Of a stretch of 11,645 nucleotides of DNA, positions 352-11,333 are shown one piece after another. The notes under the pieces were generated by a model. It was not told where the DNA came from, ran no database searches, and worked only from the letters and a program-made list of their open reading frames with translations. The stretch comes from a bacterium (GTDB taxonomy: Bacteria > AUK180), in contig JAUXGM010000069.1 of assembly GCA_030622125.1 (NCBI GenBank), positions 1 to 11,645 on the forward strand, read 5' to 3'. The translations under genes were made by a program, and so were the position numbers. Within the stretch, counting starts at the first letter, position 1. Every line of letters begins with the position of its first letter.

Positions 352-477
352 ATGGTTTACAAACAGTATAATCTAACTGATGAATATATGAGAAGATTGT
401 CTTCTAAACTTTCAGAACAATTCAAAAAATCTGATGAGCGTGAAAAAAAAGATAAAAGAGAATCTGAAAACATTTGA
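352..477 (+). CDS. Small charged protein, 41 aa, coupled to the DUF4062 gene
   Basis: The ORF starts with ATG at 352 and ends with TGA at 475-477. The peptide begins MVYKQYNLTDEYMRRL and ends in a strongly charged Lys/Glu/Arg tail from about residue 25, with no Cys, no signal peptide and no membrane segment. I do not recognise the family. It lies directly after the consensus promoter at 291-319. Its stop overlaps a possible TTG start of the next gene by four bases (TTGA, 474-477) and sits 2 bases before that gene's ATG at 480. The downstream gene has no clear Shine-Dalgarno site, so translational coupling is likely. No good Shine-Dalgarno is visible before 352 either, which lowers confidence. 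It could be a small partner or regulator of the next protein, or merely a leader ORF. Confidence 0.5.
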   Translation: MVYKQYNLTDEYMRRLSSKLSEQFKKSDEREKKDKRESENI

Positions 478-479
478 AT

Positions 480-2018
480 ATGAAATATAAAATATTTATA
501 AGTTCGGTTCAGAAGGAAATGGAACATGAACGATCAACCATATCCAGTTTGATTACAACTGACCCTTTTCTTAATGAACACTTGATCCCAGTCCTTTTTG
601 ACAAAGAGCCAATATCAGGTCGCAAAACATCTAAACCATATCTTGATTGTTTGGATTCCTGTCAAATATATATACTTTTAATAAGCAAAGAATACGGGAA
701 GTTGCAAGGTTCCATTTCGGCAACCCATCTTGAATATAGACGCTCACAAAAAAATAAACTGCCAACCCTTATTTTTGTTAAAGGTCAGGACGATGAACAG
801 CGCGAAACAAAGACAAAGAAATTGTTCAATAAGATTAAAGCAGATGGGTATACTTATAAAAGATTTTATGACCGTCTTGATTTGCGTATAGAAGTACGTC
901 GGGCTCTTATAAAAGTACTTGAACAGGAATTTGGTATTGTTCCTACAAAGAATGAGTCCAAGAGTGGTGCAGATACATTGGAGGCAACATCTCCTTTTGA
1001 AGCTAAACAGACTGATATTTTATGGAATCAATTAGATTATGATGTTGCAAAAGAATGGCTTACAAAAATAGATGATGTTTTGAAGAAAAAAATACGGAAA
1101 GATATAATTCTCAACCATCTACGGACAAGAGGTATGTTATGGCACAAGCAGGGGACTGAAGATTATTTTGCTCTGGCTGCAGGGATTATTTTTCTTGGCA
1201 GGAATCCGTCTTCCGTATTCCCGCATTGCCGTATACTTGCTGATGCATACCGCGGACAAGAAACTGATCCTAACCCAAAAGATCAGAGTACCATAAATGC
1301 ACCTGCACCAGTAGTCGTTCAGGCTGTTATTGATTTTGTCAACAATAACACACGTCATCCACCTCGCATTGTCGGTCTGAATCGTATTGTGTTAAATGAA
1401 TATCCGGTGGAAGCTATTCGTGAAGCTATCGTGAATGCAATTGCCCATAGAAATTATGAGGATAAATCACGTACCATTATGGTAGAGGTATTTTTTAATC
1501 GTGTGGTAATTTCAAGTCCGGGATTACCGCCTCGGCCTTTGACCCTACCAAAATTACGACGGGGTAAATATCTACCCTGTTCCAGAAATCCCGTTGTGGC
1601 TCAATCATTAGCTCTCCTGAAACTTATGGAACAGCGTGGCAGCGGTCTTGCTCGCATGAAAGCTGCGATGCTTGACCATGGTTTGGATCCACCTGTATTT
1701 GATATTATTGACGGTTATTTTCAGGTCACATTACCGGGGGCAGGTGATAATGTAGATCGTTTAAGAATACCTGAAGATAAAATAAAAAACTTAATTTCAC
1801 CTTCGGTCGAAGAACGACTGAACGAACGACAAAAACAGATGATGGTTATACTCATTCAAGGCGAATCATTAACCAGCCGCAAGTGTGAGAAATTATTTGG
1901 AGTATCCAGACCGATTTCGGCGAGTGATTTCAAGGTTTTAGTCCAGACAGGAATAGCAAGACGAGTTGGACAAGGTCGTTCAACACATTATGTATTAAAC
2001 TCTAAGCATAATCGTTAA
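480..2018 (+). CDS. DUF4062 - GHKL ATPase (RecG-related, COG2865-like) - winged-helix protein
   Basis: The protein is 512 aa from ATG 480; a TTG at 474 would add two residues. Residues 1-100 match DUF4062 (opening KIFISSVQKEMEHER). Residues about 175-425 resemble the ATP-binding module of RecG-related regulators: GIIFLGRNPSSVFP at 235-248, the N-box REAIVNAIAHRNY at 314-326, a G1-like SSPGLPP at 345-351 and a G2-like QRGSGLARM at 385-393. The C-terminal 70 residues look like a winged helix (LNERQKQMM at 447 onward; KLFGVSRPISASDF). In this family the N-terminal domain is often a Schlafen-type AlbA_2 domain; here DUF4062 takes its place. DUF4062 is also known at the N-terminus of STAND-type NTPases in bacterial defence loci, so a phage-sensing role is a reasonable guess but is not shown. 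There is no signal peptide, so it is probably cytoplasmic. The gene lies between direct repeats A and is probably laterally acquired. Confidence 0.85.
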   Translation: MKYKIFISSVQKEMEHERSTISSLITTDPFLNEHLIPVLFDKEPISGRKTSKPYLDCLDSCQIYILLISKEYGKLQGSISATHLEYRRSQKNKLPTLIFVKGQDDEQRETKTKKLFNKIKADGYTYKRFYDRLDLRIEVRRALIKVLEQEFGIVPTKNESKSGADTLEATSPFEAKQTDILWNQLDYDVAKEWLTKIDDVLKKKIRKDIILNHLRTRGMLWHKQGTEDYFALAAGIIFLGRNPSSVFPHCRILADAYRGQETDPNPKDQSTINAPAPVVVQAVIDFVNNNTRHPPRIVGLNRIVLNEYPVEAIREAIVNAIAHRNYEDKSRTIMVEVFFNRVVISSPGLPPRPLTLPKLRRGKYLPCSRNPVVAQSLALLKLMEQRGSGLARMKAAMLDHGLDPPVFDIIDGYFQVTLPGAGDNVDRLRIPEDKIKNLISPSVEERLNERQKQMMVILIQGESLTSRKCEKLFGVSRPISASDFKVLVQTGIARRVGQGRSTHYVLNSKHNR

Positions 2019-2292: not shown

Positions 2293-2321
2293 TTGATTTA
2301 TGGGATTAAAAGTGGTAAAAT
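2293..2321 (+). promoter_or_regulatory. Possible promoter reading into recombinase remnant and cassette
   Basis: TTGATT (2293-2298), a 17-base spacer and TAAAAT (2316-2321) approach the sigma70 consensus. The predicted start lies near 2328, next to ATG 2329. In this position it could drive the recombinase remnant and the protease cassette, like the Pc promoter of an integron. The surrounding DNA is very AT-rich, so a chance match is possible. Confidence 0.4.
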
Positions 2322-2328
2322 TAAACAT

Positions 2329-2520
2329 ATGAAAAAGTATGAGATCAAAATAATAAAAGAGCGTATTGAATTTAATAAAATTCAAGAATTATTGGAACAT
2401 AGAAGTTCTAAAACGACAGAGATTTATACTCATGTGAGTAATAAATCTTTAAGAAGTATAATGAATCCATTAGATAATCTAAACAAAGGAGGTAATATTG
2501 AAGACAAACAACATCTATAG
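2329..2520 (+). pseudogene. C-terminal remnant of a tyrosine recombinase / integrase
   Basis: The reading frame from ATG 2329 (in-frame TTG at 2293) encodes 63 aa. From about 2380 it matches the end of XerC/D- and IntI-like recombinases: IQELLEHRSSKTTEIYTHV, then the typical tail NPLDNL. The nucleophilic Tyr (codon 2425-2427) and the preceding box-II His (codon 2398-2400, in LEH where families usually have LGH) are present. The N-terminal DNA-binding domain and the Arg, Lys and HxxR catalytic residues are missing, so the protein cannot recombine DNA. The 5' part (MKKYEIKIIKERIEF) does not match the expected fold and may be unrelated joined sequence. It is co-oriented with, and immediately upstream of, the attI/attC-like site and the protease cassette, which suggests it is the relic of the integron's integrase. 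A stray XerD-type integrase fragment is the alternative. Confidence 0.75.
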
Positions 2521-2521
2521 A

Positions 2522-2601
2522 GTGGTATATATGACGGTTGGTCACATATACCGCCAAATTAGAAGAATACACGACACTATGTCGTATAAAACAAGTTAGC
2601 C
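2522..2601 (+). other. attI/attC-like recombination site (5' edge of cassette)
   Basis: Directly after the recombinase stop codon is a strong hairpin: GGTATAT (2524-2530) pairs with ATATACC (2546-2552), extended inward by TGAC/GTCA (2532-2535, 2541-2544). A second imperfect stem follows: ATAC-AC-GAC paired with GTC-GTAT (about 2567-2587), with two unpaired bases. It ends in the core GTTAGCC at 2595-2601. The integron core consensus is GTTRRRY, so one position departs from it. No upstream AAC box (R'') is visible, which fits an attI better than a complete attC. The core marks the 5' edge of the protease cassette. Confidence 0.5.
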
Positions 2602-3654
2602 GTAATAATTTGATGGAGAACTTAAAAATGATAAATCAAGCAGAAATTTTAAAAAAAGAAGACTTTAAAAAACCGATAATATTAGTTTTTATTGCAGTTT
2701 ATATTTTTGCGGTTGTGTTGACTCTCTTAAATGAACCAGAAAATGCATTAGCTTATATAGGGTTAAGCATTGGTATGTTTTTCCTCTGCTGGTTAGTTGT
2801 TGATCTTACAAAAAAGATAAAAGTTAGGGATATTGAGATAAAACGACCCGGCTTGGAACTTATAGTCGGGGTTCTAATTCTTGTTATCTGGGATTATGTG
2901 CCCATCCCTAAAATTGATTTTGGAGACAAATGGAATATTGGGTTTATCTTAAAGAAGATAATAATATTTGTGGTTATACCATTTATATTTTTAAAAACCA
3001 GAAAGAACTCATTAACATCCATGGGGCTTACAATCAAAGAATGGAAAAAGAATCTTTGGGTCGGTTTAATTGTTTTTATTGTAATGGCAATTCCAAGTGC
3101 TTTTTTTATTGCTAATACAGGTAGTGAAATTCTTAGCGGAAAGTATAGCACTCCGCAGGTTGGAATCGGGTTATTTTCATCGTTTATCTATTTCTTTCTG
3201 ATGTCAGGTTTTTCCGAAGAATTTTTCTTTAGAGCATTTATTCAGACGAGGATTTCATATTTACTGAAATCGAGTATTAGTGGAGTTTTAATCACTTCAC
3301 TGATTTTCGGGTTAGGTCATATTCAGGCTATTATGCAATGGTATCCAGGAATAACAATTGGTGAAGCTTTTTGCAGGGCATTCTTTATGCAGACACTTAT
3401 TGGAATTCTATTAGGAGTAATTTGGGAAAGGACAAGGAATTTGATACCGGGGGTATTTATACACTCGGGGGTGGACGGTTTGAATAATTTATTTTCTATA
3501 ATTGCAAAGCTTGGTCTTTGAATTACTACGGATAACACGGGATAAACGAAATTGGAGATGATTACTTTATTAATTTATAAACATTGGGGAGAAGATGTTC
3601 AGTTAAAATTTTTACAATCTTTCAAAGCCTTCACCTTCGTTTATCCCGGGAACG
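2595..3654 (+). mobile_element. Integron-type gene cassette carrying the CPBP protease
   Basis: The segment between the GTT cores at 2595 and 3654 is about 1,059 bp and holds a single promoterless gene, the usual cassette layout. The start GTTAGCCGTAATAATT (2595-2610) matches the reverse complement of AATTACTACGGATAAC (3521-3536) at 14 of 16 positions. That is what a cassette requires: when excised as a circle, its own first bases become the R' side that pairs with the R'' side of its attC. The 3' site also contains the AAC and GTT triplets and a 13-bp inner stem. The recombinase remnant lies just upstream. Known from the family: AAC/GTT are the best conserved attC positions. Inferred: the cassette was inserted by an integron integrase since lost. 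Confidence 0.65.
2628..3521 (+). CDS. CPBP family intramembrane metalloprotease (CAAX protease / bacteriocin-processing type)
   Basis: The protein is 297 aa from ATG 2628, which has a GGAG at 2615-2618 nine bases upstream. An in-frame ATG at 2613 lacks a Shine-Dalgarno, and the longer TTG 2538 start falls inside the recombination site. The protein has about eight hydrophobic segments (near residues 17-35, 41-60, 77-92, 108-123, 143-163, 180-194, 216-234, 251-266), so it sits in the inner membrane. All three family motifs are present: EEFFFR (E197, E198, R202), FGLGH (H231) and HSGVD (H279, D283). These Glu and His residues form the active site in CPBP/Rce1-type proteases. The substrate is unknown; bacterial relatives include bacteriocin self-immunity proteins. 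The gene has no promoter of its own and fills a segment bounded by two integron-type cores, so it is probably a mobile gene cassette expressed from upstream. Confidence 0.9.
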   Translation: MINQAEILKKEDFKKPIILVFIAVYIFAVVLTLLNEPENALAYIGLSIGMFFLCWLVVDLTKKIKVRDIEIKRPGLELIVGVLILVIWDYVPIPKIDFGDKWNIGFILKKIIIFVVIPFIFLKTRKNSLTSMGLTIKEWKKNLWVGLIVFIVMAIPSAFFIANTGSEILSGKYSTPQVGIGLFSSFIYFFLMSGFSEEFFFRAFIQTRISYLLKSSISGVLITSLIFGLGHIQAIMQWYPGITIGEAFCRAFFMQTLIGILLGVIWERTRNLIPGVFIHSGVDGLNNLFSIIAKLGL

Positions 3655-3660
3655 TTATAT
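3521..3660 (+). other. attC-like site (3' edge of protease cassette)
   Basis: The R''-like GGATAAC (3530-3536) and the R'-like GTTATAT (3654-3660) carry the AAC and GTT triplets and pair as ATAAC/GTTAT. Inside them, CGGGATAAACGAA (3538-3550) and TTCGTTTATCCCG (3636-3648) are a perfect 13-bp inverted repeat. Spacers are unequal (1 and 5 bases), giving unpaired bases on one side as attC hairpins have. The central loop is about 85 bases with further imperfect pairing. The site begins at the protease stop codon. Confidence 0.6.
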
Positions 3661-3704
3661 GAAATTGCTCCTCAAACAATTAGAAATGGAAAAGAGAGAA
3701 TAAA

Positions 3705-3857
3705 ATGGAAAAGATTGGGTTGTTATTGATACTGTTTTTTATGGTATCAGGAATTGCCATGACGGATGAATTTAGTGATAGCTTCAATGATGGGAATTAC
3801 CATGGATATGTTTTGACTACCAGTTTGACGACTACTATTTTGCCCGTCAACATGTAA
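3705..3857 (+). pseudogene. Truncated secreted-protein gene (signal peptide plus first residues)
   Basis: ATG 3705, preceded by GAGAG, encodes 50 aa ending in TAA at 3855-3857. Residues 1-18 (MEKIGLLLILFFMVSGIA) form a good signal peptide. The next stretch, DEFSDSFNDGNYHGY, resembles the start of secreted or surface proteins with lectin-like or carbohydrate-binding domains, which usually run for hundreds of residues. Here the frame turns into low-information sequence (VLTTSLTTTILPVNM) and stops just before repeat C at 3861. I read it as a gene cut off by a repeat-mediated rearrangement. It begins 45 bases after the attC-like core, so it could have been a second cassette; no matching 3' site is found. 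A real 50-aa secreted peptide cannot be excluded. Confidence 0.5.
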
Positions 3858-3860
3858 AGT

Positions 3861-3896
3861 TGGGGACGGGGACATAAAGAAAGTTTTGAGTTGTGA
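3861..3896 (+). repeat. Direct repeat C, copy 2
   Basis: This is the partner of 2060-2095 (about 30 of 36 matching, ungapped). It starts TGGGGACGGGGACAT four bases after the stop of the truncated secreted-protein ORF and runs into GAGTT-rich sequence. Confidence 0.65.
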
Positions 3897-3927
3897 GTTA
3901 TTAGTTTTGAGTTGAAGAAAAGAGAGA

Positions 3928-3956
3928 CTCACCACAGAGACGCAGAGTTCGCAGAG
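3928..3956 (+). repeat. Short interspersed repeat CTCACCNCAGAGACGCAGAG, copy 2
   Basis: It reads CTCACCACAGAGACGCAGAG followed by TTCGCAGAG, in the orientation opposite to the copies at 208-236 and 4425-4453. Its right part is the first bases of long repeat B. Confidence 0.8.
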
Positions 3957-4072
3957 GAATAATAGATGCTTAGCTCTGAGAAGAAACAAAAGAAAACAAG
4001 GAAATATAATAACCACAGCACCTTTTCAAAGTGCTGGATAAACCACAGCACCAAGAAGGTGCTGGATATACC
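3944..4072 (+). repeat. Long direct repeat B, copy 2
   Basis: It is identical to 1-79 over 3944-4022 and to 80-99 over 4053-4072. It carries two tandem hairpin units, CAGCAC...GTGCTG (4016-4036) and CAGCACC-AAGAA-GGTGCTG (4046-4064), where copy 1 has only one. The perfect identity over 79 bases implies recent duplication or ongoing gene conversion. Confidence 0.9.
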
Positions 4073-4211
4073 GCAGAGCAACAAATAAGTGAATAGTGAA
4101 AAGTGAAGAGTGAAAAGTTAAAGAAAATCAAAAACAAAGAAAAGAAAGAATAAAGAACTTTAACTACGGAGGCTAAAAAGAAGTTTTGAGTTTAGTTGTA
4201 AGAAAAAAAGA

Positions 4212-4287
4212 TGGATTCCACAGTCGTGAAGTTTACCCCGTACACCCAATCAAGTTGAGTGCATGCTTAATACGGGGCAGGAATGAC
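4212..4287 (+). repeat. Large interspersed palindrome (TGGATTCC...GGAATGACA)
   Basis: The outer arms ATTCC (4215-4219) and GGAAT (4280-4284) and inner arms CCCCGTA and TACGGGG (4271-4277) enclose a longer centre of about 30 bases. This is a member of the same family as 171-199 with an expanded middle. Confidence 0.65.
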
Positions 4288-4374
4288 AGGACAAAACTGG
4301 TTTTGAATTGTATTTGACTGGTGACTGGTGTTTTGGTGCACTGGTAATCCGTAGTTAATATTATTATTTAAATA

Positions 4375-4403
4375 CTGGATATTTCGCTTCGCTCAATATG
4401 ACG
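4375..4403 (+). repeat. Short interspersed palindrome
   Basis: ACTGGATATTTCGCTTCGCTC continues as AATATGACGG. The arms ATAT (4380-4383) and ATAT (about 4396-4399) flank a CGCTTCGCTC centre. It is a variant of the TGGATTCC...GACG family. Confidence 0.6.
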
Positions 4404-4424
4404 GACAGGGATGGATTCTTCTTT

Positions 4425-4453
4425 CTTTGCGCTCTTTGCGTCTCTGCGGTGAA
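4425..4453 (-). repeat. Short interspersed repeat CTCACCNCAGAGACGCAGAG, copy 3
   Basis: On the minus strand it reads TTCACCGCAGAGACGCAAAG followed by AGCGCAAAG, closely related to 208-236 and 3928-3956. Confidence 0.75.
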
Positions 4454-4470
4454 TATTGTTATTTAAATAT

Positions 4471-4504
4471 TGGATTCCACGCCCACAAGGGGCTCTGAAT
4501 GACG
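4471..4504 (-). repeat. Interspersed palindrome downstream of asd, possible transcript end
   Basis: ATTC (4474-4477)/GAAT (4497-4500) and GCCC (4481-4484)/GGGC (4490-4493) form a hairpin 24 bases past the asd stop codon. It belongs to the TGGATTCC...GAATGACG family. It could stabilise or end the operon transcript on the minus strand. No U-run follows, so it is not a standard intrinsic terminator. Confidence 0.45.
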
Positions 4505-4523
4505 GTAGGAAGAGGCTGATTTT

Positions 4524-5522
4524 CTAAATATAACCGTTTTTTACTATGTATTCAGCGATCCTTACTGCGTTTGTTGCTGCACCGATCCTTATATTATCAG
4601 CAGAAATAACGAAATTGAGAGAATTATCGGAAGCTCCTCTTCTAAAGCGTCCAACATCAACGATATCGGTATTTGCAGAGGAAATCGGCATCGGGAATTG
4701 ATAATTATCTTTGTCATTTAAGACCCGAAGATAGGGATCATTACTCATTATTTTTTCAATTTCTTCTATCTCAAATGATTTTTCCGTTTCAACATAAAGA
4801 GATTCAAAGTGAGAATAAAATGTGGGCACCCTCAATGTAGTTGCATAAACATCGATCTTATCATTGAATATCTTATCTGTTTCCTCCCACATCTTGTTTT
4901 CTTCGGTAGAATAATTGTTCTTTTCTATAGAACCGATAAATGGTAACACATTAAACGCAATGGGATACGGATAAAATTTTGAAGTTATCTCCCCATCTGA
5001 AATGAATTCCTTTGTTTCATTGTAAAGATTATTTATAGATCTCAACCCTGAGCCGGATACCGATTGAAGTGTAGTTACAATAATTTTTTTTATTCCGAAA
5101 TTTTTATAGATCGGATGAAGAGCCAGTACCATCTCAATTGTTGAACAATTTGGATTTGCAATAATTTTATCTTCTTTCTTTATAATATTTCCATTTACTG
5201 ATGGGACAACAAGAGGAATACCTTTGACCATTCTATGTGCAGTTGAATTATCTATGATCTTTCCGACATTATTTTTTATTTTTTCAGCAAATTCTTCTGC
5301 AAATCTTGCCGATATAGCAAAAAATACTATATCATCATCAATATCATCACAAAATTTATCAACCTTGATCTCCTGTCCCCGGAATTTAAAAATTCTTGAT
5401 CGGGATCTTTCTGAGGCATACAAAGAAAGATTATCAACTTCTATGGTAGATGATTCAAGAAGTTCAAGCATCTTTTGACCGACCACCCCTGTAATCCCAA
5501 TAATAGAGACATTTATGCCCAT
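4524..5522 (-). CDS. asd: Aspartate-semialdehyde dehydrogenase
   Basis: It catalyses NADPH-dependent reduction of aspartyl phosphate to aspartate semialdehyde, the branch point to lysine/diaminopimelate, threonine and methionine. The protein is 332 aa from ATG 5522, a normal length. The start has AGAGG six bases upstream; a TTG at 5525 would add one Met. In this numbering the nucleotide-binding loop GITGVVGQKM is at 9-18, the catalytic Cys126 is in NPNCSTIE, the SVSGSG motif is at 154-159, and the catalytic His238 is in RVPTFYSHFE (most relatives have GH where this has SH). It is the last gene of the minus-strand operon, and its ATG shares one base with the pgi stop (TGATG), so the two are translationally coupled. 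Nothing suggests it is inactive. Confidence 0.95.
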   Translation of the reverse strand: MGINVSIIGITGVVGQKMLELLESSTIEVDNLSLYASERSRSRIFKFRGQEIKVDKFCDDIDDDIVFFAISARFAEEFAEKIKNNVGKIIDNSTAHRMVKGIPLVVPSVNGNIIKKEDKIIANPNCSTIEMVLALHPIYKNFGIKKIIVTTLQSVSGSGLRSINNLYNETKEFISDGEITSKFYPYPIAFNVLPFIGSIEKNNYSTEENKMWEETDKIFNDKIDVYATTLRVPTFYSHFESLYVETEKSFEIEEIEKIMSNDPYLRVLNDKDNYQFPMPISSANTDIVDVGRFRRGASDNSLNFVISADNIRIGAATNAVRIAEYIVKNGYI

Positions 5523-6763
5523 CAATAACCTCTTTTTCCAAGCCGCCGATACATTATTCTCTTTCCACCCTCAACTCCGGGTTGATCGAACGGATCAATA
5601 TCAAGAAGATGTGAACTATAAACCGTTAATATATATGAGAACATAATTAACCGTCCCAAATTTTCGGGGGATAATTCTTTAAGTTCCAATTCCAATGTAG
5701 GGACACCGAGATTATTAAGATTCTCCTGCGTTCCTTCAAATTCAATATTCACAATATTCCCAAAATCTTTATTGTAAAGATAACCGAAGGAAGAATAATT
5801 CAATTTCTCCGAGATCGTAAAATTTACATTACGATCCCTTACATTTAGAAAAAAGATCACCTTGTCCTGCGGTCCATCGGTAAAAAGTTGAATAATTGAG
5901 TGCTGATCGGTCGGTCCGACGGCAATCATTGGTGTTTGTCCGATTTTTCTACCCTCTTTATTTATCTTCCCCAATGATTCCGACCATAATTGAATGAACC
6001 ATTCACCATAAGTTTTTAATCTATAAACATAAGGAAAGAGTATTAGGATATTATGCCTTCGTTTGTAGAGCTTATAATTGGCAAATCCGATCTCAAATGG
6101 TTCTGTTAATGTTCCTTGTTTTACATCATTTAGATATTCCTTTGCTCCCGATATCAGTTCGTCAATTGGAAATCCGCCTAAATACAATGGGAATAAACCT
6201 ACATTGCTTAAAACGGAATATCTGCCGCCAAGCTCTTCAGGAAGGGAAAGATTAAAAAGCCGATTTTCTTCAACAAACCTTCTGAGATCACCCTTTTTCT
6301 GATCAGTTATAAAAACAAAATGATCTTTCCAGTTATCTTTTAATGTCTCTTTTGCTTTTCCAATAAAGAACAGCGTATTTGCTGCCGTTTCCATTGTTGA
6401 TCCTGATTTTGAAATTGGAATAAAGATCGTTTTTTTAATATCTATATTTTCAATTACCTCCGCCAATCTTTCCGGCTCGGTTGTGTCAACAATAATTATT
6501 CTTTTTTTAAATATTTTTTTAAAACAGTTATAGATCATTTTTGTTCCAAGTGCCGATCCTCCGATACCGATAACGACAATTGTATCGAATATTGGAAGCT
6601 TGCTAATTATTTTTTTATAATTACCAATATTTCCGCCAATATAATTAGAAAAAGGGAATCCCTTATCATTTAATTCCAAAAGAAATTCTTTTTTTAATTC
6701 TTGCACCTTAGCTGCGTATTTTGTTAGCAAAATTGAAACCTTTTTCGAGTAACTTGTTTTCAC
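5522..6763 (-). CDS. pgi: Glucose-6-phosphate isomerase
   Basis: It interconverts glucose 6-phosphate and fructose 6-phosphate in glycolysis and gluconeogenesis, in the cytoplasm. The protein is 413 aa, slightly shorter than the 440-450 aa bacterial type seen in Bacillus and Thermotoga. Sugar-phosphate-binding (SIS) motifs GIGGSALG (66-73) and SKSGSTMET (118-126) and the signature ELGGRYSVLS (177-186) are present. So are the probable catalytic Glu262 (WSES), His288 (GPTDQHS) and Lys401 (DPFDQPGVEGGK). The start is GTG 6763, supported by AGGAGG at 6769-6774 five bases upstream, the best Shine-Dalgarno of the operon. Its G is shared with the TAG stop of the LexA-like gene. The end overlaps the asd ATG by one base. 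Confidence 0.95.
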   Translation of the reverse strand: MKTSYSKKVSILLTKYAAKVQELKKEFLLELNDKGFPFSNYIGGNIGNYKKIISKLPIFDTIVVIGIGGSALGTKMIYNCFKKIFKKRIIIVDTTEPERLAEVIENIDIKKTIFIPISKSGSTMETAANTLFFIGKAKETLKDNWKDHFVFITDQKKGDLRRFVEENRLFNLSLPEELGGRYSVLSNVGLFPLYLGGFPIDELISGAKEYLNDVKQGTLTEPFEIGFANYKLYKRRHNILILFPYVYRLKTYGEWFIQLWSESLGKINKEGRKIGQTPMIAVGPTDQHSIIQLFTDGPQDKVIFFLNVRDRNVNFTISEKLNYSSFGYLYNKDFGNIVNIEFEGTQENLNNLGVPTLELELKELSPENLGRLIMFSYILTVYSSHLLDIDPFDQPGVEGGKRIMYRRLGKRGY

Positions 6764-7356
6764 TAATACCTCCTGATTACTCCTGTTATTTTCCCTAATA
6801 TTTTTACATACTTCTTTCTTATCATAGCGAATTCCGGATTTTCCGACTTTAATATTATTAATTTTTCTTCAAAAAAGATCCTTCTGATCATAATATTGCC
6901 TTCAAGTAGAACTGCAACAATATTACCATTTTTTGCATAATTTTGCATTTTTATGATCACAAAGTCATTTTGTTTTATCGCTGTATTTTTCATTGAGTTA
7001 TCGATTATTTTAAATGCGAAATATTCCCCAGTAGAAAAAAAATCCTTATCTATCGGAATATAGTTATTAATTGATTTTATTGGTAAAAATGAATTCCCAT
7101 TTATCTCATTTATGATTGGGATAAAGTTATTTTTCTTGGCGTCAACATTTATGATATTTAATGATCGGGAGTATTTCTTTCGTTTGATATAACCTTTTTT
7201 TCTCAATGTTTCTATCCTATCATAAGTAGCTCTGATACTTATTCCAAAGTGCCCTGCTATTTTTTTAAGAGTCGGTGTATATTTTTTTTCGTTGATATGG
7301 TTTTCTATGAAGGTAAGTGTTTTCATTTGAACCTCAGTCAGGTTATTATCTATCAT
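6763..7356 (-). CDS. LexA-like repressor (winged helix plus S24 peptidase fold), degenerate cleavage site
   Basis: The 197-aa layout is that of LexA. An N-terminal winged helix spans 1-70 (LTEVQMKTLTFIENHI; YTPTLKKIAGHFGISIRATYDRIE has the PT..EIA..FGI pattern). A C-terminal S24 domain spans about 78-197 (EYFAFKIIDNSM, ILKSENPEF, ILGKITGVIRRY). The catalytic Ser121 is retained in DNSM (usually GDSM). Where LexA has the Ala-Gly scissile bond, this has Asn86-Gly87 (IPIINEINGNS). Where the catalytic Lys should be (VKR), it has IRR, Arg158. Self-cleavage is therefore doubtful, and the protein may be a constitutive or ligand-controlled regulator. Its ATG overlaps the upstream stop as ATGA, and its TAG overlaps the pgi GTG. 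It could regulate its own operon, but I see no clear operator. I do not assign lexA. Confidence 0.8.
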   Translation of the reverse strand: MIDNNLTEVQMKTLTFIENHINEKKYTPTLKKIAGHFGISIRATYDRIETLRKKGYIKRKKYSRSLNIINVDAKKNNFIPIINEINGNSFLPIKSINNYIPIDKDFFSTGEYFAFKIIDNSMKNTAIKQNDFVIIKMQNYAKNGNIVAVLLEGNIMIRRIFFEEKLIILKSENPEFAMIRKKYVKILGKITGVIRRY

Positions 7357-9602: not shown

Positions 9603-11333
9603 TCAAAAAGCAAATAATTCATATTTTAAATGGAAAAAGCCTTCTTGTAATATTTTTCTTAAATTATAGAAATATTTTAGTAAGAAATGCCATTTTTGGG
9701 CAATATATTTTGAAAACGAAGAAGATAGGGCATTGATTTCCTTAATATCCCCTTTATCCTTGATATACTTACATAATCTCAGAAGATTAATACCGATTGC
9801 TCTGCAGATTATACCATTTTTCACCCTTGACAAACCGCGAAAGATGGTTCGCTTCACTGATTTATAAAAAAACATATAAACCATTGACTCCGCACCGGCA
9901 CGAAGTTTTAAGAATTCTTTATATTCAGTATCCTCTAACTGCTTTCCCTTGATTTTTACATAATATTCTCTTTCCTTGAAATAATAGCTGTAAAACTTTT
10001 TTCTTTCTTTAACAAAACATTGTGATAGGAAAGGACAATTTGAACAGTCTTCCTTTTTAAATCTACCACTTAAATATCTCCTTTTCGCATCATATTTTTG
10101 CTGATACGGCTTCTTGCCGGCAGGACATTCCTTTAGAACACCGTCTTCAATAATTGCATCTGCAAGGTTTTGATTATTTTTGACCTTTTCGGGGCTTTTT
10201 ATTGCGCTCACATGCAAATTAATCCCGAATTGTTTGCATTTATCTTCAGTATTCTCTCCTGAATAACCTCCATCTGTTAATAGATCATTTGCTTTGTCAA
10301 TTAGTGAATTTTCATCATTCAAACTTTCCAAAAGAAGTTCTGTATCAGGCGTATTATTGGGCTTTACTTCAACTTCTGTAATTACTTGAAATAAATTATC
10401 TTTAGAACAAGTTTCTCCAAAATTTCCAACATAACCTTTATGATGACCATCTTTATAACGATATGTAGCATCGGGATCTGAAGGGCTTTGAATACTTGAA
10501 CTGGAAACCTCTTTCGGGGGTTTTAAATCCACCTTTGGTGAGCTCCCACCGGTAATGTTTAATTGTTCATCAATCAAGCGGTTCAAATTCTTAAATTGTT
10601 TGGTTTTATTATAACTGCTGTTATTTTTATATTTCTCATAAAGCAAATATGCGTATTCCCCTAATCTCCGGAGCATTTCTTTTGTTTCATTCTGCTTTAA
10701 ACGATGGGATAGATCAAGATTCTTTTCCTTTAATAAAAGTTGAACTTCTTCCGGTAATGAACAAATATCAGTAGAATTAAGAATTTTTAGAAAGTTATGT
10801 ATGATCTTAACAAATAGGTTTAATCGGGTTAGCCGTTTTATATTTGCTGCTATCATGCTTGAATCCATCCGCTGAAGACTCAAATCAAGGTTGAATTCTT
10901 TTGTCAGATCAAGTGAAATATCCTTCAAAACCTCCTTTAATAAAGAGGTGTTATGTTTTTCGTCATACTTAACTAAATGTTCACGAAAATAATAAAGAGT
11001 GCGAGGCGCCAAACAAACTTCACCAGGATCCTCTAATCCAAGAGCATACATAGCACGTAAATCTGTATGAAAAGACTCAATCAATTCTTCATCTGTATAA
11101 TTAAATAAATGCTTAATAATCTCCAAACTCACGAGAATATTCACCGGCTTATTGGGGCGACTGTATTTATCGCTATACATATCTTTGAATTTGCTTTCAT
11201 CAATATTGCAAAATATGTGTTCATAAAATGGTGATGCCCAGCTTGAATTTATTATTTTCCTTACTTTAGGCGGCAAATTCTTCAAGAATGATATTAACTT
11301 TTTTTGGTTATGAGTTATGTTTTTCTTAAACAT
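9603..11333 (-). CDS. IS1182-family DDE transposase
   Basis: The 576-aa protein has an N-terminal DUF772-like region (about 45-125: SRPNKPVNILVSLEIIKHLF...TDEELIESFHTDLRAMYALGL). It has a DDE catalytic core with the probable triad Asp157 (LQRMDSSMIAANIKR), Asp354 (LLTDGGYSGENTED) and Glu482 (LRAGAESMVYMF). A Cys cluster lies between (C403, then CSNCPFLSQC at 430-439). The end segment SVKRTIFRGLSRVKNG is typical of the family. The frame is uninterrupted, so it is probably active. The start ATG 11333 has AGGAGA (11345-11340) six bases upstream. The enzyme cuts and joins the ends at 9575 and 11530. Confidence 0.93.
   Translation of the reverse strand: MFKKNITHNQKKLISFLKNLPPKVRKIINSSWASPFYEHIFCNIDESKFKDMYSDKYSRPNKPVNILVSLEIIKHLFNYTDEELIESFHTDLRAMYALGLEDPGEVCLAPRTLYYFREHLVKYDEKHNTSLLKEVLKDISLDLTKEFNLDLSLQRMDSSMIAANIKRLTRLNLFVKIIHNFLKILNSTDICSLPEEVQLLLKEKNLDLSHRLKQNETKEMLRRLGEYAYLLYEKYKNNSSYNKTKQFKNLNRLIDEQLNITGGSSPKVDLKPPKEVSSSSIQSPSDPDATYRYKDGHHKGYVGNFGETCSKDNLFQVITEVEVKPNNTPDTELLLESLNDENSLIDKANDLLTDGGYSGENTEDKCKQFGINLHVSAIKSPEKVKNNQNLADAIIEDGVLKECPAGKKPYQQKYDAKRRYLSGRFKKEDCSNCPFLSQCFVKERKKFYSYYFKEREYYVKIKGKQLEDTEYKEFLKLRAGAESMVYMFFYKSVKRTIFRGLSRVKNGIICRAIGINLLRLCKYIKDKGDIKEINALSSSFSKYIAQKWHFLLKYFYNLRKILQEGFFHLKYELFAF

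Follow-up and report, generated by a model that had tools for sequence, protein, structure and literature searches.

What brought a gene for a CPBP membrane protease between two short GTTA-type cores in a bacterial contig, and what kind of enzyme would have moved it there? The window, i.e., the whole 11,645-nucleotide stretch of DNA that was analyzed, carries GTTAGCC at 2595-2601 and GTTATAT at 3654-3660 on either side of this gene, both as described in an earlier note that took the gene for an integron gene cassette. The features read around these cores are listed in Table 1. Both the family profile and the EExxxR motif place the encoded protein in PF02517, and neither a gathering-level Rfam search nor a search for the CPBP protein in plasmids gave a match.

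Table 1. Features of the window between 2293 and 3857; E values of models made in this analysis are rough.
Feature	Position	Strand	Description and evidence
Promoter-like box TTGATT-N17-TAAAAT	2293..2321	+	Sequence and leader alignment; box of the original integrase gene, in a position to drive the cassettes
Integrase relic	2329..2520 (ORF listed from 2293)	+	C-terminus KIQELLEHRSSKTTEIYTHVSNKSLRSIMNPLDNL directly preceded by a short N-terminal piece, the middle of the gene being lost
First hairpin in the relic-to-core gap	2522..2554		GGTATATATGAC..GTCACATATACC; folding z = -3.3/-3.7 for 2520-2605
attI	2562..2606	+	Hairpin ATACACGAC-ACTAT-GTCGTATAA, AACAA, core GTTAGCC 2595-2601; attI model (working mainly by sequence) E 0.012
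Cassette 1	2595..3653	+	Runs from the core G up to the last base ahead of the following core; own-end complementarity 14/16, 15/20
CPBP (Rce1-like) membrane protease gene, 297 aa	2628..3521	+	PF02517 E 7.7e-17; EEFFFR at residue 197, conserved-type histidines
attC of cassette 1	3530-3660 (from 3517 with extended R'')	+	Structural scan, folding, mismatch signature
Second cassette, start GTTATATGAAAT	3654..3857	+	50-aa ORF 3705-3857 with signal-like N-terminus, running into repeat sequence

The cassette start is complementary to the R'' side of its own end. The match at 14 of 16 positions is real, but it is counted from the core G (2595-2610 against 3521-3536) and not, as the earlier note had it, from the bases after the core. 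The next best AAC within the window scored 10 in this test, and 14/16 was reached by 1 of 3000 Markov-1 shuffles (2700-4200, sites ending in AAC); the earlier note had called the match hard to explain by chance. The perfect 13-bp inner repeat with unequal spacers was likewise recovered, and the arms of the site are R'' at 3517-3536 with its AAC at 3534-3536, a spacer of 1 nt (A), L'' at 3538-3550 (CGGGATAAACGAA), the loop, L' at 3636-3648 (TTCGTTTATCCCG), a spacer of 5 nt (GGAAC) and R' at 3654-3660. The site fits the form AAC-N1-3-perfect stem ... stem-N4-6-GTTR with 1 nt, 5 nt and 13 bp. The R/L pairs of a canonical attC are present, but the canonical spacers of about 5/5 and the extrahelical base are not; here the spacers are 1/5 and no base is extrahelical. 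The outer stem is mismatched at position 11, with A in the cassette start and C on the R'' side. Single-strand folding, which the earlier note had proposed, gave z = -3.8 for the bottom strand and z = -2.2 for the top strand.

Complementarity of a cassette to its own end had been regarded as specific to cassettes formed as circles; it is present here, but it also occurs in canonical integrons and does not by itself tell the kind of integron. A second, broken copy of the CPBP gene in the same genome (G000:C25) speaks more directly, as the preceding DNA differs and 86% identity over 116 bp begins exactly at the core G (2595 in the window, 6952 in locus L051), which makes it near certain that the CPBP gene is a gene cassette. 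Other genes bounded by similar sites, whose absence the earlier note would have counted against its proposal, were found in the own genome as well as in relatives. The second cassette of the window, with A at position 11 and T at position 12, is truncated and its attC is missing. Complete attCs are scarce, with one in the window and few in this genome, most other copies having lost theirs.

The recombinase gene of the platform is present in the window solely as a C-terminal relic, which lies on the same strand as the cassettes. The relic ORF matches positions 277-315 of TIGR02249 (E 1.6e-7), and at 2347-2481 it matches a profile of recombinases without the I2 segment of IntI (E 1.3e-11, a rough value); it is 45% identical over 44 residues to one such recombinase, that of G050. 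The relic stop is followed by a hairpin and then by TATAAAACAA|GTTAGCC. Because relic, hairpin and GTTAGCC stand in this order on the cassette strand, the first core (2595) is the attI behind an integrase gene and not the end of another cassette. The layout of attI in the I2-less branch, namely a hairpin, an A-rich spacer and a GTT core behind the recombinase stop, is matched in the window, and so is the canonical type in which a GTT core next to the integrase is the insertion point, the homology between the cassette copies starting from the core G. The earlier description of the gene as promoterless holds for the CPBP gene itself, but not for the platform, to which the box upstream belongs.

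Several further features surround this region. Dispersed intergenic repeats occupy 1-180, 2090-2290 (repeat-rich from 2020) and 3850-4500 of the window, and the sequence of 1-110 is repeated directly at about 3948-4080, the two copies lying on either side of the relic region. A gene with DUF4062 and RecG-type HATPase_c_4 at 474-2018 (+), just upstream of the relic, is possibly mobile cargo too. A lexA gene (6763-7356, -) lies about 3 kb from the relic, and an IS1182-type transposase gene (9603-11333, -) is apparently intact.

At least a dozen loci carry the collapsed platform. Its leader, consisting of the promoter plus MKKYKIKI..., was matched by a model at n = 15 places in the own genome (window copy at a rough 5.8e-16) and strongly in G001, G002 and G005; outside the clade, there were only weak matches, none better than E 0.003, in 4 of 53 genomes. 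The leader ORF of most copies resembles MKKYKIKITKRQIGKMVSPLDNL, and of the integrase it keeps the SPLDNL end alone. An attI model, built with its pairs shifted by one column and working mainly by sequence, still recovered the known sites and that of G007 and gave 8 copies in G000 and 2 in G002. The genes behind the platforms, which we read as accessory, include KamA-like, DUF1611-type, CPBP, methyltransferase, radical SAM, restriction-type methylase and SIR2-like genes. At G002:C294, a 130-aa ORF fuses residues 7-68 to residues 310-365 of a G050-type recombinase in frame, and promoter, fused ORF, attI, a cassette with a complete attC of the window's geometry and the next cassette follow one another; in the C-terminus, this relic and the I2-less enzyme of G050 share 70% identity. 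Further recombinase relics occur at G002:C110 and G006:C205. In G007, the same attI hairpin lies about 50 bp 3' of a partial recombinase ORF, and the first cassette ends in the attC geometry of the window. A profile search of seven genomes found no intact recombinase of this kind; the other strong matches to the profile span its whole length in every genome and are XerC/XerD-like genes in G000. No IntI scored above the cut-off in the clade. As a side observation, contigs G000:C54 (L098) and G000:C169 (L055) seem to continue each other within one endonuclease-like gene; joined in this way, they would hold a run of three leaders, with different genes, over about 6 kb.

The nearest intact enzymes (G050, G059 and G035, together with the partial one of G007) are without the segment of about 42 residues that holds I2 in IntI. 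We found at least 560 relatives and fetched 80 loci from bacteria and archaea, whose sources include Spirochaetes, Nitrospirae, Aminicenantes, Atribacteria, WOR-3, Bacteroidota, Bacillota, Chloroflexota and DPANN/Altiarchaeal archaea. Between two fixed motifs there are 91-92 residues in 74 of the 80 loci, compared with 93-97 in Xer proteins and 133 in most IntI, and the branch has 15 residues where Vibrio cholerae IntI4 (2a3v) has 57. Many bacterial phyla, archaea and IMG/VR contigs have both recombinases and sites of the branch; its recombinases are present on plasmids as well. A quick tree with a weak backbone placed IntI as a single clade (100) within the I2-less group (96). L118 (G082:C1) carries a true IntI that has the I2 segment together with the N-terminal extension otherwise seen in the I2-less enzymes, and it may connect the two branches.

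Sites shaped like that of the window stand beside these recombinases. A structural scan over 370 kb (AAC-N0-3-stem of 9 or more...stem-N3-7-GTT[AG], with R-box pairing) matched the window, G002:C294 (1 site), G007:C82 (1) and G035:C33 (4 in a row), and found this geometry nowhere in three rounds of Markov-1 random sequence. At G035:C33 (L134, 6661-11376), an intact I2-less recombinase is followed by at least 4 same-strand attCs of about 83 bp with nearly identical inner structure; this locus is the cleanest complete system that we saw. When the 80 loci were scanned strictly, 22 of them had sites on the recombinase strand (34 in total, 34/34 downstream of the recombinase), and 4 sites lay on the opposite strand. 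An attI-type hairpin followed the recombinase stop codon at 23 of 77 loci, compared with 1.7% in shuffles and 1 of 55 upstream windows. The IMG/VR contigs, putatively viral and intended as a control set, themselves bear arrays. These are divergent from the recombinase, 108 of 111 minus-strand sites lying 5' of it, and the spacers are mostly 2/5 or 1/5. Some of the contigs (L224, L235, L220, L259 and others of L215-L294) combine compact I2-less recombinases of 265-300 aa with up to ten attC-like sites in this divergent arrangement.

The pairing within cassettes follows the same pattern. Among 120 two-site cassettes, the first 20 bases matched their own R'' side at 13.5 positions and the neighbouring site at 9.8, the own end being better in 99 and the neighbour in 13. 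Position 11 is a constant mismatch: in loci other than the window, A occupies it in 92% (genomes) and 98% (IMG/VR contigs) of starts and C in 84% and 74% of ends, respectively, and the window has A against C. Of 18 hand-listed starts, 17 have A at this position, including the two of the window and that of tet(X5) described below. The attC signature of the branch, i.e., spacers of 1-3 and 5 nt, a perfect inner stem with no extrahelical base and A·C at position 11 of the outer stem, is found in the window.

The strongest alternative is that the region is the relic of an ordinary integron, with a canonical IntI carrying I2, inverted as in Treponema, and with a somewhat unusual canonical attC. Inverted integrons do exist (PMC3607928), the window relic matches TIGR02249 too, own-end complementarity is shared with canonical integrons, and the true IntI of L118 has the N-terminal extension. 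However, the 1/5 spacers, the perfect 13-bp stem and the position-11 A·C of the window attC fit the I2-less group, and the branch-geometry scan found no site in a Vibrio phage integron, a class 3 integron plasmid or a cyanobacterial integron plasmid; since a canonical one-base-bulge scan also found none in the Vibrio phage integron, these canonical records serve as a negative control and for the reading of single sites only. Read singly, the GES-1 site has a spacer of about five bases on either side, and its L arm contains one extra base; Vibrio cassettes pair with their own ends over 8-11 bases in clear cases and then stop, with neither the A·C mismatch nor a second paired stretch. The close identity of the G002 relic to the G050 enzyme and the lack of IntI above the cut-off in the clade also stand against an ordinary integron, which we consider improbable. 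Judging from the relatives and the attC signature, the deleted integrase of the window would have been I2-less as well. We conclude that 2293-3857 is very probably the relic of an integron-like platform whose lost recombinase most likely came from the I2-less branch of IntI relatives. The cassette proposed in the earlier note is thus borne out, but not as part of a textbook integron, the recombinases of its branch being without the IntI-specific insertion.

A second alternative, that host XerC/XerD move the cassettes in trans and no dedicated recombinase is involved, draws on the XerC-/XerD-like genes being the sole intact tyrosine recombinases found in the genome and on Xer enzymes lacking I2 too (PMC4792948); we hold it to be very improbable, given relics of dedicated recombinases at platforms in G000, G002 and G006 and intact dedicated recombinases at arrays elsewhere. 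Movement within cassette bounds is also seen between genera. The DUF1611-type gene, which is in first position at the G000:C25 locus, recurs in the same cassette at G002:C312, in another genus, with 93.7% DNA identity over 1172 bp starting about 10 bp before the core. The housekeeping protein asd of G000 and G002 is 66% identical, a contrast that marks horizontal transfer of the cassette. That the units are dispersed, MITE-like intergenic repeats with chance GTTA motifs next to ordinary genes is scarcely credible, for although copies of the leader and of other short repeats are found throughout the genome and 2020-2290 and 3850-4500 are repeat-rich, homology is bounded at the core, cassette ends complement their own starts, the leader has integrase homology and the G000/G002 transfer within these bounds already contradicts it.

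The preferred reading, an I2-less platform that has collapsed, suggests the following history. A tyrosine recombinase gene would once have lain on the cassette strand with attI just behind its stop codon, and its enzyme, most likely of the IntI-relative branch without the IntI-specific I2 segment, would have joined attI with a folded attC strand. Its landmarks on that strand were presumably the unequal spacers (1-3 and 5 nt) and the A·C mismatch 11 bases into the extended outer stem, rather than extrahelical L-box bases; the strand used and the cleavage point are predictions. The CPBP gene would have been captured as a circular cassette at G^TTAGCC (2595), bringing its own attC at 3530-3660, with the now truncated second cassette after it. 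An internal deletion would then have left the promoter, a few N-terminal codons, the C-terminal codons and attI, so that the cassette array can now be transcribed from the former integrase promoter. Because no intact enzyme of the kind was found in the genome, the CPBP cassette is probably frozen unless a recombinase acts in trans.

This system shares with canonical integrons the capture of single-gene cassettes at a GTT core, an attI beside the integrase gene, the R''/L''/L'/R' arms and a cassette start complementary to its own R'' side. It differs in that canonical IntI has the I2 segment of about 42 residues, absent from the recombinases of the branch, and in that canonical attCs have spacers of about 5/5 and an extrahelical base instead of 1-3/5 spacers, a perfect inner stem and the outer position-11 A·C. 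In the inverted integrons of Treponema (PMC3607928) and archaea (PMC9668308), the integrase gene likewise points toward an attI behind its stop codon; however, the archaeal integrases are described as possessing the additional domain specific to IntI (PMC9668308), which is missing in the relatives here, and the local gene is collapsed. CALIN and In0 elements (IntegronFinder, PMC9024848) are also degraded integrons, with cassettes and no working integrase, but here the integrase gene has lost its interior, with promoter and attI kept, and copies of the platform occur at many loci. From bacteriophages, integrons with a canonical IntI have been described, as have CALINs (PMC9892861). A paper on an 'Integron-like' tyrosine recombinase subgroup, in its available part, calls the insertion essential for integron function and reports no cassettes for insertion-less members (PMC8138268), whereas such members sit at arrays here. 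We found no earlier description of an I2-less cassette-capturing branch in the open-access literature.

The branch also extends to a resistance gene region on a plasmid. On the Acinetobacter baumannii plasmid p29FS20-1 (NZ_CP044520.1; L296), the recombinase groups with the I2-less ones, and it is followed within 4001-6070 by TATACGCC-ATTT-GGCGTATA, seven bases, GTTATGTGCCAT and tet(X5). This order suggests that tet(X5) entered as a cassette at an attI-type hairpin and core; no attC was found 3' of tet(X5) on this record. The tet(X) region was published as ISCR2-xerD-tet(X)-res, and the accessible part of that report treats it as an ISCR2-linked module with no mention of a cassette nature (PMC7530245); its 'xerD', however, groups with the I2-less recombinases, and tet(X5) stands after the attI-type hairpin and core.

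The I2 helix is held to be an innovation for single-stranded attC, and its origin is considered hard to study, for example because of 'the lack of intermediates' (PMC7790495). It is a tentative idea, and one that we would sooner doubt than accept, that IntI descends from I2-less cassette systems, in which case capture at folded sites would have preceded the I2 helix. The strand would then have been marked at first by the A·C mismatch and the unequal spacers, and one branch would later have gained I2 and extrahelical bases. A widespread and probably cassette-capturing I2-less branch with its own attC signature provides living enzymes for testing the origin of integrons, and searches that require the IntI-specific domain would miss these recombinases. 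The cassette-like arrangement of tet(X5), a tetracycline-inactivating gene, means that the origin of a current resistance gene may lie in this branch. Scattered platforms with gutted integrase genes, as in the window, illustrate how captured genes can become fixed under the former integrase promoter.
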